DNA of 6,811 nt from Candidatus Adiutrix sp. Its GTDB lineage: Bacteria; Desulfobacterota; Desulfarculia; Adiutricales; Adiutricaceae. Of this stretch, positions 723 to 6,811 are shown one piece after another (the stretch's first letter is position 1; every line of letters begins with the position of its first letter). The stretch covers positions 1 through 6,811 of the forward strand of contig JAISRV010000194.1 of the NCBI GenBank assembly GCA_031273445.1, read 5' to 3'. The position numbers and the translations under genes are program-made. Under the pieces are notes generated by a model. It had not been told where the DNA came from and did not search any database. It saw only the letters and a list, made by a program, of their open reading frames with translations.

Positions 723-766
723 TGACATATGGCGGCCAGGGCGGTCTGGATGGCATAAATGTCAGG
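721..766. repeat. Perfect 8-bp inverted repeat overlapping the regulator stop codon
   Basis: CCTGACAT (721-728) and ATGTCAGG (759-766) are perfect inverted copies with a 30-base spacer. The right arm covers the TGA stop of the sigma-54 regulator (762-764). The left arm is adjacent to the 679-722 repeat, so the two form a pair of structures at the 3' end of the regulator mRNA. No T-tract is present. Confidence 0.4.
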
Positions 767-2741
767 CGTTGCCGTTGTCCCTGTCCCGCTGATTTTTCCA
801 CAGGGTCACCCGGCTCATGCCCAATATTTCGGCCACTTTGGTCTTGTTGCCGCCATGCCGCTTCATCAACTGGCTGATGAGCTGTTGCTGCATATCCTTC
901 ATGGGGCCCAGGGCCACCGTCAGACGGTCTTCCTCTTCTCCGGATTCATCCTCCCTGGCTTCCTGAAAATGGCGAACCTGTTCGCCGACGCTGTCCAGCA
1001 GCCACTCATTGATGTCCTGGCCCGGGTCGCAGAGGATGACGCTGCGGCCGACGCAGTTTTCCAATTCGCGGACATTCCCGGGCCAGTGGTGCTCCTGCAG
1101 AGTTTTCAGCGATTCCTGGCTGGCGGTCAGCGGTTCGCGCTGGCACATTTCAGTATACTGAGCCAAAAAATGCTCCATCAGAACGGGAATGTCCTGCTGA
1201 CGCCGCCTTAAGGCGGGTAGGTGTAGGGTCAGCAGATTGAGCCGGTAATACAAGTCGCTGCGAAACTGGCCGTCGCGAACCATCTTATACATATTTTTGT
1301 TGGTGGCGGCCACCACCCTGACATTGACGTTGATGACCTTGTCGCCCCCGACCCGCATGACCTCTTTTTCCTGCAGAGCCCGCAAGAGACGGCCCTGGAT
1401 GTTGGACGAGGTCTCCCCGATTTCATCCAGAAAAATCGTGCCGTTGTGGGCCAGTTCAAACAGGCCGGGCTTGCCGCCTTTTTTGGCGCCGGTAAACGCG
1501 CCTTCCTCATAGCCGAACAGTTCGCTTTCCAAAAGGCTCTCCGGCAGGGCCGCGCAGTTGATGGCCACGAAAGGCCCGTCGCGCAAAGGGCTTTCATTGT
1601 GGATGCTCTGAGCCATTAATTCCTTGCCGGTGCCGGTTTCACCCTCGATCAGAACGGCCGCCTGAGCCCGGCTGAATTTTTTGGCTTTGGCGATGATCTC
1701 CTTCATGGGTTTGCTGACGGCGATGATGTCGCTGAAAGTGTATTTGGCGAAAAGACCCTTTGCCCCCAACTGGGCCCTGGCCCTGGCCTCGACCTTCTGA
1801 AGATAACTCAGCCCTTGAAAAGTCAGGACTGTTTCGCTTCGCTCCGAACGAAAATGAATAGGCGCTCGGCTGACCATGAATTTTTTGTCGCCCCAGACGA
1901 TGAGCTTGTTGACCACCGGCTGGCCGTCGCCATAGAGCTGAGTCAAGCCGGCCGGGCTGGCGTCCGAATCCAGACGCTGGCCCAGAACGTCCTGGCCGCG
2001 AAGGTCGAGCATAAGTTTGGCGGCTTCGTTCATGACCGTCACCTGCGACTGATGATCGACGGTCACAATGCCTTCGCGGGAATAGTTTAAAATGCTGGCC
2101 AGACGCATGGATCGCATGGCGTCCCGGGCGTTCAGGTCGGTAATGTTGCGGGCCGCCAGAAGAGCTTCCCTGACGTGCTTTTCCTTGGACTGCACCAGCA
2201 CGTACGGTAGGCCGATGGATAAGGCGTATTTCTCCACGCAGCCTCCGAAACCGATCAGAGCGTAGTCCTGCCCGAAAGTCATCACCTTGTCCAGCATGCT
2301 GTCAAACTCTTCCCGGCAGGTGTAGGAAAAAGACAGGGCCGTGTCGTGGGTGATGGCCTGATACATGGCTTCGAATTCCTGCTGTTCCTCGCCCTGGTGG
2401 GACAGCAGCACCATTTTCTTGCCCAGGGTTTTGGCTTTTTGAAAGGCTCGCAGATAATCACGGGCAGTCAGGGCAATGGCGATGACCGGCTTATGAACCA
2501 TTTCTTTGATGGCGTTGGCAGTGCCGGCCTGGCTGATGATGACGTCGTATTCATCTTCATGGTCGCGGGCTAAAATATGACCGTTCAGATGGATGCCGCC
2601 CTGAACTATATCCAGCGGTAGATCGATTTCCTCGGCCAGGCGGGCCGCGGTTTCAGCCAGCTCGCTATAAATGGCCACCATAAGGATGCAGGCCTTGCGG
2701 GGAGCGCCCAGGCGGATAATTTCCAGAGTTTGCGATTCCAT
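762..2741 (-). CDS. Sigma-54-dependent transcriptional activator with PrpR_N, PAS, AAA+ and Fis-type HTH domains
   Basis: This complete 659-residue protein is a bacterial enhancer-binding protein. Residues ~10-190 resemble the PrpR N-terminal sensory domain and ~205-310 a PAS fold. The AAA+ core (~335-575) has Walker A GETGTGKE (367-374), the sigma-54-contacting loop GAFTGA (414-419) intact, Walker B TIFLDE (435-440), and the arginine-rich FRSDLYYRLN (492-501). After an acidic linker (~593-606) comes a Fis-type helix-turn-helix (~630-648) with recognition helix SRVTLWK. The intact GAFTGA loop means it should activate sigma-54 polymerase. The ATG is the first start after an in-frame stop (TGA about 30 bases upstream), with GAGG five bases before it. 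It is divergent from an operon bearing a sigma-54 promoter, which is its likely target. The ligand is unknown: PrpR itself senses 2-methylcitrate, but a 2-oxoacid or acyl derivative fits this context better (inference). Confidence 0.93.
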   Translation of the reverse strand: MESQTLEIIRLGAPRKACILMVAIYSELAETAARLAEEIDLPLDIVQGGIHLNGHILARDHEDEYDVIISQAGTANAIKEMVHKPVIAIALTARDYLRAFQKAKTLGKKMVLLSHQGEEQQEFEAMYQAITHDTALSFSYTCREEFDSMLDKVMTFGQDYALIGFGGCVEKYALSIGLPYVLVQSKEKHVREALLAARNITDLNARDAMRSMRLASILNYSREGIVTVDHQSQVTVMNEAAKLMLDLRGQDVLGQRLDSDASPAGLTQLYGDGQPVVNKLIVWGDKKFMVSRAPIHFRSERSETVLTFQGLSYLQKVEARARAQLGAKGLFAKYTFSDIIAVSKPMKEIIAKAKKFSRAQAAVLIEGETGTGKELMAQSIHNESPLRDGPFVAINCAALPESLLESELFGYEEGAFTGAKKGGKPGLFELAHNGTIFLDEIGETSSNIQGRLLRALQEKEVMRVGGDKVINVNVRVVAATNKNMYKMVRDGQFRSDLYYRLNLLTLHLPALRRRQQDIPVLMEHFLAQYTEMCQREPLTASQESLKTLQEHHWPGNVRELENCVGRSVILCDPGQDINEWLLDSVGEQVRHFQEAREDESGEEEDRLTVALGPMKDMQQQLISQLMKRHGGNKTKVAEILGMSRVTLWKNQRDRDNGNA

Positions 2742-2817: not shown

Positions 2818-2890
2818 GCATTGTCCTGATTGAGGCAATGCGATTTATAAATTAACGAAAATGTAAAAATAATTAACTATTACAATTTAT

Positions 2891-2944
2891 GGGCTGGCTC
2901 CTGCAATTCAGCTTTGTTGCCGAATTTTTCCGGCCTGCCAGCCC
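2891..2944. repeat. Perfect 8-bp inverted repeat with nested arms
   Basis: GGGCTGGC (2891-2898) is perfectly inverted at GCCAGCCC (2937-2944), and the flanking T2890/A2945 pair extends it to 9 bp. Inside lies a smaller inverted pair, AATTC (2905-2909) and GAATT (2922-2926). The GC-rich arms stand out in AT-rich surroundings. It could be a looped operator, a cruciform or an RNA stem; no T-run follows, so terminator function is not supported. Confidence 0.45.
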
Positions 2945-2952
2945 AACTCAGA

Positions 2953-2994
2953 GTTCAGGGCATTTGTAAATATATTGTCTGAACATTTAGTTCA
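2953..2994. promoter_or_regulatory. Candidate operator: three GTTCA/TGAAC half-sites
   Basis: GTTCAG (2953-2958) is inverted at CTGAAC (2979-2984), and TGAAC (2980-2984) is inverted again at GTTCA (2990-2994) across ATTTA. The middle element is thus shared by two dyads, one with a 5-bp and one with a 20-bp gap. They lie about 190-230 bp upstream of the expected sigma-54 start. A dimeric Fis-type HTH activator would plausibly bind the 5-5-5 dyad, but nothing in the sequence proves which repeat is its site. Confidence 0.35.
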
Positions 2995-3121
2995 AATATT
3001 TCTCACATATCGTTAATTTTTGAATCAGCATACGTTAAATTTTAAAATATGGCAAGCCCTGTTTCTCTCTCCTTCCTCAATGGCTCTTTATGATCATCTC
3101 TGAAAAAATATTTAATTATCA

Positions 3122-3160
3122 GCCGATTCTCTAAAACTAAAAAATAAAATCAAAATCGGC
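3122..3160. repeat. 7-bp inverted repeat running into the -24 element
   Basis: GCCGATT (3122-3128) and AATCGGC (3154-3160) are perfect inverted copies separated by 25 mostly A-rich bases. The right arm contains the GG of the sigma-54 -24 box. A protein bound here, or a cruciform, would compete with polymerase, so this could be a repressor operator. Chance occurrence is also possible. Confidence 0.35.
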
Positions 3161-3172
3161 ACACTCCTTGCA
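3157..3172 (+). promoter_or_regulatory. Sigma-54 (-24/-12) promoter of the oxidoreductase operon
   Basis: CGGCAC (3157-3162), five bases, then TTGCA (3168-3172) match the sigma-54 consensus YTGGCAC-N5-TTGCW closely, with invariant GG and GC at the right spacing. Transcription should start near 3183-3185, leaving a leader of about 117 nt. The promoter faces the operon, and the divergent gene encodes a GAFTGA-containing activator, so both halves of a sigma-54 system are present. Confidence 0.85.
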
Positions 3173-3299: not shown

Positions 3300-4421
3300 A
3301 TGGCCAGAAAACAGGAACTTATCCAGGGCAACCACGCCATCGCCCTGGGCGCTTTTTACGCCGGCGCCCGTTTTTATGCCGGCTACCCCATCACCCCTTC
3401 TTCGGAGATCGCCGAAGTCTGCGCCCGGGAACTGCCGGGCTTGGGGGGCGCCTTCATGCAGATGGAGGACGAGATCGCCAGCATGGGAGCCATCATCGGC
3501 GCTTCGCTGGCCGGAGTCAAATCTTTCACCGCCACCAGCGGCCCCGGTTTTTCCCTGATGCAGGAAAACCTCGGAGTGGCGATAATGGGAGAAGTTCCGG
3601 TGGTGGTGGTCACTGTGCAGCGCTCAGGCCCCAGCACGGGCCTGGCCACCAAACCGGCCCAAGCCGACCTCATGCAATTGCGCTGGGGCCGCCACGGCGA
3701 CCAGAGCCTCGTCGCCCTGATTCCGGCCACTGTGGCCGAGTGCTTTGAGCTGACGGTCAAGGCTTTCAATCTCAGTGAAAAATACCGGGCGCCGGTCATC
3801 GTCGCTCCCGATGAAATCGTCGGCCACATGCGGGAAAACTACGCCCCGCCGGAACCAGGCCAACTGGAAATAGTCGACCGGGCCCAGCCCCACGGATTGA
3901 TCGAGGACTATCGGCCTTTTAATTTTGAAGACGGCGCGGTGGCCCCCTTGGCTTCCTTCGGCAGCCCTTACATCAGTCACATCACCAGTTCCATGCACGG
4001 GGAAGATGGTTACAGCGACAACTCGCCGGACAACGCCGGCCGTCGGATCAGCCAACTGCACCGAAAACTGGAAAAAAACATCGACGATATCGTCATGACC
4101 CGCTCTTTTGACCTCGACGGCTGCGATACCCTCATCGTGGCCGTGGGCTCGGCCGTGCGGGCCGCCCGGGCCGCCGCCAAAGAGGCCCGCCAGCGGGGAC
4201 GCCAGGTCGGCGTGCTTCAAGTCGTCACCATGTGGCCCTTCCCGGAGCGTGAGGTTCGGCGGGCGGCCTCCCGGGCCGAAACCGTGATCGTGCCCGAAAT
4301 GAACTACAGCGGACAACTGGCCGGTGAAGTGGGCCGGGCCGCGCCGGGAGCGCGCCTGATTCGGGCGCCCAGCTTTGACGGCCGGGGCCTCACTCCGGCC
4401 GACATCACCGCTGTGTTATAA
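3300..4421 (+). CDS. korA: 2-oxoacid:ferredoxin oxidoreductase, alpha subunit (KorA type)
   Basis: This 373-residue subunit carries the pyrimidine-binding half of the thiamine diphosphate site. It contains GYPITPSSE (28-36), the QMEDEIAS element (54-61), TATSGPGFSLM (77-87), QRSGPSTG (107-114) and RWGRHGD (128-134), then domain II ending in VPEMNYSGQL (331-340). Length and motifs fit KorA, and TATSGPG and QRSGPSTG favour KorA over VorB. The enzyme oxidises a 2-oxoacid with CoA to acyl-CoA and CO2 and reduces ferredoxin in the cytoplasm. AAGGA at 3286-3290 lies nine bases before the ATG; an out-of-frame ATG at 3290 sits directly on that RBS and is unlikely to be used. It is first in the sigma-54-controlled operon. 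Substrate is uncertain: 2-oxoglutarate by family, but a branched-chain or aryl 2-oxoacid is possible given the Ptb/Buk sequence downstream. Confidence 0.92.
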   Translation: MARKQELIQGNHAIALGAFYAGARFYAGYPITPSSEIAEVCARELPGLGGAFMQMEDEIASMGAIIGASLAGVKSFTATSGPGFSLMQENLGVAIMGEVPVVVVTVQRSGPSTGLATKPAQADLMQLRWGRHGDQSLVALIPATVAECFELTVKAFNLSEKYRAPVIVAPDEIVGHMRENYAPPEPGQLEIVDRAQPHGLIEDYRPFNFEDGAVAPLASFGSPYISHITSSMHGEDGYSDNSPDNAGRRISQLHRKLEKNIDDIVMTRSFDLDGCDTLIVAVGSAVRAARAAAKEARQRGRQVGVLQVVTMWPFPEREVRRAASRAETVIVPEMNYSGQLAGEVGRAAPGARLIRAPSFDGRGLTPADITAVL

Positions 4422-4425
4422 ACAC
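4413..4425 (+). other. Small stem-loop over the alpha-subunit stop codon
   Basis: GTGTT (4413-4417) and AACAC (4421-4425) pair around an ATA loop, and TGTTTTG follows. The TAA stop (4419-4421) lies in the loop and right arm. It is too short and T-poor to be a convincing terminator but could reduce readthrough or protect the upstream mRNA. It marks the only gap (30 bp) inside the operon. Confidence 0.25.
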
Positions 4426-4451
4426 TGTTTTGTGCCTGAAGGAGTAATATT

Positions 4452-5285
4452 ATGGGCCACACCAACGGTCTCGCCTATCTGAGAACCGATATCCTACCCA
4501 ATATGTGGTGTCCCGGTTGCGGCAACGGCATCGTGCTTTCGGCCATGCTACGAGCCTTCGAAGCCCTGAAGCTGGAACATCACGAAGTGGTGGCGGTCAG
4601 CGGCATCGGCTGCTGGGGCAAGGTTGACGATTACATCACCGTCAACGCCCTCCACGCCACGCACGGCCGGGCCCTGAGTTTTGCCACGGGCGTGAAGGCG
4701 GCCAATCCCCGGCTGCGCGTCCTGGTGCTGGCCGGCGACGGCGACGGGACCACCATCGGCGGCAATCACTTGATTCACAGCGCCCGCCGGAATATGGATC
4801 TGACGATGATCATGGTCGACAATTTCAACTACGGCATGACCGGCGGCCAGTATTCGGCCACCACCCCCGGCGGACGCGTCACCAGCACCACCCGGGGGGG
4901 CAATCCCGAGCGCGCCTTTGACGTCTGCGAACTGGTGCGGGCGGCCGGCGGCAACTATGTGGCCCGCCAGTCCATCGCCGAAGGAGCGCTGATTCAGAAA
5001 AGAATTGAAGAAGGCTTAAGCCGCCCCGGCTTTTCCTTCATTGAGGTGATCAGCGCCTGCACCACTCTTTACGGCCCCAACAACGGACTGAAAACGCCGG
5101 TGGATATGTTCCGGCAGTTTAAAGAGAAATGTCTGCCCAAGGAAAAATACGACCGGATCGAAAACGCCGCGGCCAAAGGCTATCTGACCACCGGAGTGCT
5201 GCACCAGGCCGACGCCCCGGATTTTCTGAGCCAATATGAGGCCATGCGCGGGCGTCTGGCCGCCGCGAAAGGTGGCCGGGCATGA
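4452..5285 (+). CDS. korB: 2-oxoacid:ferredoxin oxidoreductase, beta subunit (KorB type, TPP and [4Fe-4S])
   Basis: This 277-residue subunit binds the thiamine diphosphate and the proximal [4Fe-4S] cluster. WCPGCGNG (19-26) supplies C20 and C23; C54 of SGIGC (50-54) and C203 of SACTT are the other likely ligands by family analogy. The TPP/Mg motif starts at GDGD (95-98), continues through IGGNHLIHSARR (102-113) and ends at NFNYGMTGGQYS (124-135). Length and motifs are normal for KorB, and no key residue is missing. AAGGAG (4439-4444) lies seven bases before the ATG. The 3' end overlaps the gamma gene by four bases (ATGA), implying translational coupling. The TPP beta half pairs with alpha to form the active site. 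Confidence 0.93.
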   Translation: MGHTNGLAYLRTDILPNMWCPGCGNGIVLSAMLRAFEALKLEHHEVVAVSGIGCWGKVDDYITVNALHATHGRALSFATGVKAANPRLRVLVLAGDGDGTTIGGNHLIHSARRNMDLTMIMVDNFNYGMTGGQYSATTPGGRVTSTTRGGNPERAFDVCELVRAAGGNYVARQSIAEGALIQKRIEEGLSRPGFSFIEVISACTTLYGPNNGLKTPVDMFRQFKEKCLPKEKYDRIENAAAKGYLTTGVLHQADAPDFLSQYEAMRGRLAAAKGGRA

Positions 5286-5824
5286 GTCGTCATTTCGAAT
5301 TGCTGTTGGGCGGCTCCGGCGGTCAGGGGCTGGTTTTCGTCTCCTCTTTCATCGCCAAGGCGGCCATGGCCGACGGACTTAACGCCGCCCAGACTCAATC
5401 ATACGGCATCGCCCAGCGCGGCGGATTCATTTCGGCGGAAGTGGTGGTCTCGGATCAGGAAATACTCTATCCCAAAGTCACCCGGCCGGATCTGGTCATC
5501 GCCCTCCATGAGGCGGCCGAGCCCCATTTCGTTAAACTCGACTCCAAGGTCGTCTTTGACAGCGGGCTTATGGACTCCCAGCCGCGCCCCGGCTGGGCGG
5601 GTTTGCCCTTCACCGACCTGGCCCGTTCGCTGAACTGTCCCAAGGCGGCCAATCTGATCGCCTTTGGCGCGGCCCTTCATTTCGCCCCCTTCATTCCCTT
5701 GGAGGCGGCGGAAGCGGCGGCCCGGGAATCGTTTCCGTCCGGCGCGGCCGAGATCAACATTCAGGCCCTGCGCCTCGGCCGCTCCGAGGCGGTTAAAAAA
5801 TTTCGCGGCGGGAGGCTGAGGTGA
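5282..5824 (+). CDS. korC: 2-oxoacid:ferredoxin oxidoreductase, gamma subunit (KorC type)
   Basis: This 180-residue protein is the gamma subunit, corresponding to the separate catalytic-gamma domain of one-chain pyruvate:ferredoxin oxidoreductases; it contributes to CoA handling and assembly. The glycine-rich GGSGGQG (10-16) near the N-terminus is the family signature. QTQSYGIAQRGG (37-48) matches the usual SYGxxxRGG block, although many KorC proteins read SYGPEARGG there. YPKVTRPDLVIAL (63-75) is also typical. The ATG overlaps the beta stop as ATGA, with AAAGGTGG (5268-5275) six bases upstream. The end overlaps the next gene by four bases (GTGA). It is complete and in frame. Confidence 0.9.
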   Translation: MSRHFELLLGGSGGQGLVFVSSFIAKAAMADGLNAAQTQSYGIAQRGGFISAEVVVSDQEILYPKVTRPDLVIALHEAAEPHFVKLDSKVVFDSGLMDSQPRPGWAGLPFTDLARSLNCPKAANLIAFGAALHFAPFIPLEAAEAAARESFPSGAAEINIQALRLGRSEAVKKFRGGRLR

Positions 5825-6042
5825 AAAAATATACGGTGCAAATATTGTCCGAACGCTGCAAGGGCTGTGGCCTGTGCCGCGAAGTCTGCTCCCGGCAAGT
5901 GCCGGAAAATTCCGGCTGTTTTAACCGCCACGGTTATGAATATTTCCGGGCCGCCCAGACCGAGGACTGCGTCGGCTGCCGCCGTTGTCTGATGGTCTGC
6001 CCCGATTTCAGCATCGAACTGACCGAGACCGGAGGCGCGTGA
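5821..6042 (+). CDS. korD: Ferredoxin-like delta subunit with two [4Fe-4S] sites (KorD type)
   Basis: This 73-residue protein has two CxxCxxCxxxC motifs, with ligands C13, C16, C19, C23 and C50, C53, C56, C60. The second is followed by Pro as usual; the first is followed by Ser. C33 is an additional cysteine. It is the electron-transfer delta subunit that carries electrons from the beta-subunit cluster towards ferredoxin. The start is a GTG overlapping the gamma stop (GTGA), with GGAGG (5811-5815) five bases upstream. Delta is last here, whereas many kor operons place it first (korDABC). The downstream ORF starts inside its stop codon, so all genes of the operon are coupled. Confidence 0.9.
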   Translation: MKKYTVQILSERCKGCGLCREVCSRQVPENSGCFNRHGYEYFRAAQTEDCVGCRRCLMVCPDFSIELTETGGA

Positions 6043-6811
6043 TGATCCCCGTCACTTTTCAGCAACTGGCCGATCAGGTTTTAAAGGACAAAGGGCCGAA
6101 AACAGTGGCGGCCGTGATCGCCCCCGAAGACGCCCACACCCTGGAGGCGGTCGTCTACGCCGCTGATCAGGGCCTGGTCGAGCCGCTTCTGTTCGGCCGG
6201 AAAACGGCCGTCAAAGCCGATATCTACGACGCGGTGGTGGTCGATGAGCTGGAAGACATCGCCCGCTTCACCGGCGTTCCCCAACTGACCCGACGGGCCT
6301 CCTGCCACGTCCTGAACATGCGGGCCGTGGCCCTCAAGACCGCCCAAAAATACGGCCGCCTTTTTCAAGATTTGAATTTCGTGGTCTGCCACATGGGCGG
6401 GGGCATCACCGCCACGGTCATCAGCCGGGGCCGGATGATCGACGCCCTGACCGACGAGGAGGGATCTTTCTCCCCAGAAAGGGCCGGGGGCGTGCCCTGC
6501 CGTCAGTTGGCGGATCTCTGCTATTGCGGCCAATACAGCCGCCAGGAGATCACCAAGCTCATGCGGGGCAGGGGCGGGCTGGTGGCCTACCTGGGCGCCA
6601 ACAGCGCCCTTGAAGTCGAAAAACGTATCGCCGCCGGCGACCACCGGGCCGAGCTGATTTATTCGGCCATGGCCTACCAGACCGCCAAGGGCATCGGCGG
6701 GCTGACCACCGCTTTGAAGGGCCAAGTCGACTACATCGTTCTAACTGGGGCCCTGGCCCGGTCGCCCCGTTTCCTCGACCAGGTTCGGGAGCGGATCGGC
6801 TTCATCGCCCC
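6042..6811 (+). CDS. Ptb-Buk chimera: phosphate butyryltransferase N-terminus joined in frame to butyrate kinase C-terminal part (cut by window edge)
   Basis: The frame is open for 256 codons to the window end. The start is ATG overlapping the delta stop (TGATG), with GGAGG (6031-6035) six bases before it. Residues 1-~55 resemble the start of phosphate butyryltransferase, including VAAVIAPEDAHTLEAV (22-37) and GLVEPLLFG (44-52). From about residue 58 the protein is butyrate kinase, entering at the family's mid-protein motif: IYDAVVVDELEDIAR (61-75), then HMGGG (117-121), SFSPERAGG (142-150), GRGGLVAYLG (176-185) and LTGALA (234-239). Buk normally has ~118 residues before the first of these, including NPGSTSTK, which is absent. 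Most of Ptb is also missing. Codon use looks uniform and there is no stop, suggesting a recent in-frame deletion or an assembly collapse. Kinase and transferase activity are both unlikely. The parent enzymes would convert acyl-CoA to acyl phosphate and then to acid plus ATP. Confidence 0.8.
   Translation, partial: MIPVTFQQLADQVLKDKGPKTVAAVIAPEDAHTLEAVVYAADQGLVEPLLFGRKTAVKADIYDAVVVDELEDIARFTGVPQLTRRASCHVLNMRAVALKTAQKYGRLFQDLNFVVCHMGGGITATVISRGRMIDALTDEEGSFSPERAGGVPCRQLADLCYCGQYSRQEITKLMRGRGGLVAYLGANSALEVEKRIAAGDHRAELIYSAMAYQTAKGIGGLTTALKGQVDYIVLTGALARSPRFLDQVRERIGFIA
6194..6210. repeat. Paired CGGCCG hexamers at the chimera junction
   Basis: CGGCCG occurs at 6194-6199 and 6205-6210 with GAAAA between. 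The hexamer is itself palindromic, so the pair is both a direct and an inverted repeat. It coincides with residues 52-57, exactly where Ptb-like sequence gives way to Buk-like sequence. It may mark a recombination or misassembly point, but the hexamer is common in GC-rich DNA. Confidence 0.4.

Follow-up and report, generated by a model that had tools for sequence, protein, structure and literature searches.

A probable deletion remnant of a ptb-buk gene pair at the end of an oxidoreductase operon in a Candidatus Adiutrix sp. draft genome

The last open frame of the window, by which we mean the whole stretch of DNA analysed (6811 nt, exactly one contig), joins the beginning of a phosphate butyryltransferase gene (ptb) to the middle and later part of a butyrate kinase gene (buk). 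We think that it probably stems from a recent deletion in the sampled bacterium that would leave a protein with neither enzyme activity. This is a known kind of event, an ordinary broken gene pair; on present evidence the frame is not a new family but is best read as a deletion remnant, with an artefact as the less likely alternative. The frame (6042-6809, plus strand) encodes 256 residues, contains no stop and runs open into the contig end, behind an oxidoreductase operon laid out as follows.

762..2741, minus strand: divergent sigma-54 activator with a PrpR_N domain (PF06506, PF00158, PF02954)
3158..3172, plus strand: sigma-54 type -24/-12 promoter-like site (GGCAC-N5-TTGCA; 1 match against 0.04 expected)
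3300..4421, plus strand: 2-oxoacid:acceptor oxidoreductase alpha subunit, full length, 373 aa (NF006412, 479.6 bits, cut-off 411)
4452..5285, plus strand: 2-oxoacid:ferredoxin oxidoreductase beta subunit (PF02775; best NCBIfam models below their cut-offs)
5282..5824, plus strand: 2-oxoacid:ferredoxin oxidoreductase gamma subunit (PF01558; best NCBIfam models below their cut-offs)
5821..6042, plus strand: ferredoxin-like subunit, korD type (NF042987, E 1.7e-13, below the curated cut-off)
6042..6215, plus strand: 5' part of ptb, codons 1-58 (45/58 residues identical to the 302-aa Ptb P0122)
6216..6221, plus strand: joint, codons 59-60 (A, D), which could originate from either gene (alignment with the Ptb proteins P0122/P0123 and the Buk proteins P0003-P0005)
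6222..6811, plus strand: 3' part of buk, corresponding to residue 128 onward of a 361-aa relative and truncated at the contig end (174/196 residues identical to P0003)

Ptb residues 1-58, the ambiguous two-codon joint and Buk from its residue 128 thus follow one another in a single frame. An earlier note had described an in-frame Ptb-Buk fusion starting at 6042, and both the translation and the separate matches of the two halves confirm it. Its boundaries need adjustment: it was right about the Ptb start, but the match extends to K58 instead of ending at residue 55, and the IYDAVVVDE motif at which it let Buk begin from residue 58 is indeed present, but starts at residue 61. The start codon shares bases with the ferredoxin gene's stop (TGATG) and GGAGG lies ahead of it at 6031-6035, so the gene start looks intact. 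The frame lacks about 244 of the 302 residues of Ptb and 125-127 of the 361 of Buk, and its joint is some 590 bases away from the contig end.

The kinase half is recognised with ease. Residues 61-256 align gap-free with residues 128-323 of Buk P0003 at 89% identity (I61 corresponding to I128); judged by the nearest Buk, 38 further C-terminal residues would lie beyond the contig end. Of the separate model searches of both halves that the earlier note had called for, the one with residues 58-256 gave 244.5 bits to the NCBIfam butyrate kinase NF002834 (model positions 125-324 of 357), and the one with the Ptb part gave weak NCBIfam matches. NF002834, a subfamily model, passes its cut-off of 222 with 248.8 bits; the equivalog TIGR02707 reaches 241.0 bits, under its cut-off of 289.1, a score that the contig end also lowers. 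Pfam names the kinase part of the fused protein, and the C-terminal ASKHA domain is recognisable up to the 38 residues beyond the contig. The phosphate loop NPGSTSTK (P0003 residues 10-17), present in the full-length relatives of the alignment, is absent, as had been proposed, and Buk domain I has lost its GRGGK stretch as well.

The 60-residue Ptb part gives weaker signals: NF004472 (Ptb) matches it with 22.4 bits (E 5.4e-5) and NF006045 (Ptb/Pta-type) with 24.2 bits (E 1.3e-5), TIGR02706 (Ptb) scores 13.1 bits over residues 9-59 only, far from its cut-off of 410.5 bits, and Pfam PTA_PTB (PF01515) has no match up to E 1 in the fused protein (P0001) or its first 60 residues. When residues 1-60 were searched alone, three of 24 candidates matched: besides the frame's own product, these were two Ptb proteins of 302 aa (E 5.3e-20 and 4.6e-19). 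An N-terminal Ptb profile made from these two and the window's segment matches all three by construction; run over 123 proteins, it gave E 0.36 as the best other match among those listed. We also considered whether residues 1-58 might be a kinase N-terminus instead; the 45 of 58 identities to full-length Ptb reject this. The Buk alignment of P0001 does start at residue 18-29, inside the Ptb part, in 12 of the 94 loci compared, which we read as weak chance similarity.

Compared with Ptb (TIGR02706; solved relative 7vg9), residues 1-58 of the remnant match the N-terminus, but four fifths of the protein is gone; compared with Buk (TIGR02707; solved relative 1x9j/1saz, butyrate kinase 2), it lacks residues 1-127 with the phosphate loop. 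The best solved match of its predicted structure is nevertheless butyrate kinase 2 (1x9j). Mean pLDDT is 63.5, with block means of 79-91 over residues 91-130 and 82-91 over residues 191-256; residues 1-87 lie almost entirely below 50, a region where the alignment of 23 sequences, with two Ptb rows, is weak. Kinases of the ASKHA family need the phosphate loop. Because it lacks this loop and four fifths of Ptb, the remnant is presumably not a kinase and inactive.

The nearest relatives found of each half are separate full-length proteins, a Ptb of 302 aa and a Buk of 361 aa (P0003). The whole fused protein matched 6360 proteins at E<=0.001, the best besides itself being the 361-aa Buk, and no second protein with the Ptb-Buk architecture occurs among the 120 listed of these matches or among the three proteins of the Ptb-part search. 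An 807-aa frame in a relative was examined as a natural fusion and rejected, its Ptb and Buk lying in different frames as separate genes. Complete adjoining pairs occur in relatives, where the earlier note had suggested looking: in all 11 of the nearest named loci (L037-L047) buk directly follows a ptb match that is close to full length. Between ptb codon 58 and buk codon 128 these loci span 1147-1293 bp, a length divisible by three in 5 of the 11; given this spacing, the missing stretch is likely about 1.1-1.3 kb, in keeping with the deletion of about 1.1 kb, and the deletion-like joint, postulated earlier.

The operon context is shared with some of these loci. L037-L039 carry the same genes as the window, and matches to its sigma-54 activator; in L038 and L039 kor alpha, beta, gamma, delta, ptb and buk are ordered as in the window (about 1.5 kb separates gamma and delta in L039), and in L037 kor lies downstream of buk. 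They differ from the window in that ptb and buk are complete and separate. The other 14 of the 17 named loci with gene order examined have no kor match at E<=1e-10. The activator at 762-2741 is likely the regulator of the operon. The promoter-like site at 3158-3172 lies ahead of the oxidoreductase genes and faces the divergent activator gene; 9 of 200 shuffles also contain such a site. An AT-rich imperfect inverted repeat at 2842-3026 (arms 2842-2874 and 2994-3026, 73% complementary) possibly holds activator binding sites. At the other end of the contig, positions 2-571 on the minus strand encode a metallo-beta-lactamase-fold protein (PF00753) with a hydrophobic N-terminus, its gene cut by the contig end.

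All 80 loci kept from a named genome collection (the best of 125) have a Buk match running from residue <=12 to >=330, a count that leans to full length since the query was full-length Buk; a large ptb match occurs in 54 of them, and kor alpha and beta both match in 15 at E<=1e-8, a lax threshold applied to loci of varying size. In 10 stretches from five genomes of the same genus or family, which account for 11 of 16 matches stronger than E 1e-30 outside our own genome, full-length Buk occurs in 10/10, a ptb match in 5/10 and the fused architecture in none. One family relative (L117) has two tandem buk genes, at 4060-5133 and 5490-6563, after one ptb. Among 395 sampled genomes of the phylum, four besides our own, all of one genus, match the fused protein at E<=1e-70 (54-56% identity), and all four have long ptb and buk matches. 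A class search for P0003 at E<=1e-130 over 63 genomes returned nothing, not even from our own genome, and so shows little.

We propose that a recent in-frame deletion of about 1.1-1.3 kb would have joined ptb codon 58 to buk codon 128 onward, presumably at short or no homology; it would be present in cells of the sampled bacterium, and its product would have neither enzyme activity. At the joint, the two Ptb relatives have KEV or KEE followed by L, and in Buk relatives IYD is preceded by PAY or PPY, so that the bases common to both genes would number at most about 10, too short for an ordinary k-mer misjoin. None of the three repeat families found within the remnant spans the joint.

The foremost alternative, less probable than a deletion yet carrying real weight, is an assembly or library artefact: ptb and buk would be intact here, and the joint would come from a chimeric read, gap closing or low-coverage repair. 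The bin is a fragmented draft (439 contigs, 2.79 Mb, 71.67% complete, 2.89% contamination), the joint is close to the contig end, and the fused architecture was met once among the matches listed. The missing stretch was not found on other contigs of the bin, although a short leftover contig could have been discarded. A shared stretch of about 20 bases or more at the joint seems implausible, and a random chimera rarely joins expected neighbours collinearly and in frame; with no long shared stretch and with the expected neighbours, order and orientation, we consider a real deletion likelier than a random chimera. A deletion of the same appearance would also result if templates switched while the library was amplified.

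The state of the kinase half bears on both readings. It contains no stop and no gap. At columns conserved at >=90% it has three rare residues (range 0 to 9 in 120 sequences; 0 in its three nearest relatives), and its T186A is found in none of the other sequences compared. In relative-rate comparison with its sister P0003 (outgroup P0004) the window has 13 changes against 5 (chi-square 3.6); six other outgroups give 8:2 to 12:5, and over all seven chi-square runs from 2.9 to 4.5, exceeding 3.84 in one of seven, uncorrected. Changes unique among the four nearest sequences number 10 in the window, 3 in P0003, 7 in P0004 and 12 in P0005, and terminal branches measure 0.134 for the window, 0.051 for P0003 and 0.148 for P0005. 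A long decay of the kinase half is not borne out by rare-residue counts, rates or branch length, so a real break would be recent; we read the half, which shows no clear decay, as fitting a recent deletion or no deletion at all. A remnant free of constraint should evolve faster, and the weak rate signal may count slightly against the deletion; an about normal rate is what an intact gene, and hence an artefact, would give. The alpha subunit evolves no faster than its nearest relative with 8/8 outgroups (chi-square <=1.3); its nine rare residues, 116th of 120 in that count, indicate that the lineage is divergent anyway.

A separate question, compatible with either a deletion or an artefact, is whether the contig was mis-binned from another organism, which we consider possible but less likely than not. 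The alpha subunit was found in none of the 36 other genomes of the family at E<=1e-60, its best named relatives being Desulfovibrio proteins (68-69%), and the scarcity of strong matches to the fused protein in the phylum, confined outside the own genome to those four genomes of one genus, points the same way. On the other side, the GC content of 0.586 lies within the bin range of 0.538-0.672, the tetranucleotide distance is the 9th lowest of 23 bin contigs, and lateral transfer of the operon would look alike. From these search results for the alpha subunit, lateral transfer or mis-binning of the operon is possible.

That selection maintains a genuine short Ptb-Buk hybrid here in some new role, such as a regulatory ATP-binding protein, is highly improbable: the frame is open behind an apparently intact start site, and stretches of the C-terminal ASKHA region are modelled fairly confidently, but no second such protein appears among the matches listed, the stretches from genus and family relatives lack it, and nearly all of the first 87 residues are predicted at low confidence. 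The 'new short protein' of the earlier note thus finds no backing, the architecture being confined among the matches listed to one protein on one contig instead of recurring in several unrelated genomes as a natural fusion family would, and no title among the literature matches listed describes a natural Ptb-Buk fusion. We give hardly any credence to a living lineage that expresses a kinase-dead, nucleotide-binding Ptb-Buk hybrid tuning acyl-phosphate metabolism in a sigma-54 controlled oxidoreductase operon.

The earlier note also held that the deletion kills substrate-level phosphorylation, and had advised searching the rest of the genome for intact copies. Two further complete pairs are present in the bin, one on C138, where ptb comes first, and one on C215, where buk does; their Buk proteins are 42% and 48% identical to P0003 and their Ptb proteins 40% and 50% identical to P0122. 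There is also a strong acetate kinase family match, and two more PTA_PTB matches lie on two contigs without a P0122 match at E<=1e-10. Because of the two complete pairs the organism would keep such ATP synthesis, and the loss would concern at most this operon's own step.

The main value of the finding lies in annotation: automatic pipelines could name the frame butyrate kinase, as one curated model passes its cut-off, and such a call would ascribe to the operon an ATP step not encoded in its sequence. With oxidoreductase genes upstream that look intact, the operon would still yield an acyl-CoA; the ATP step would fall to the bin's two remaining ptb-buk pairs or to different enzymes. Provided that the deletion is real, the bacterium has recently lost one of three ptb-buk pairs and kept an oxidoreductase operon without its own ATP step.
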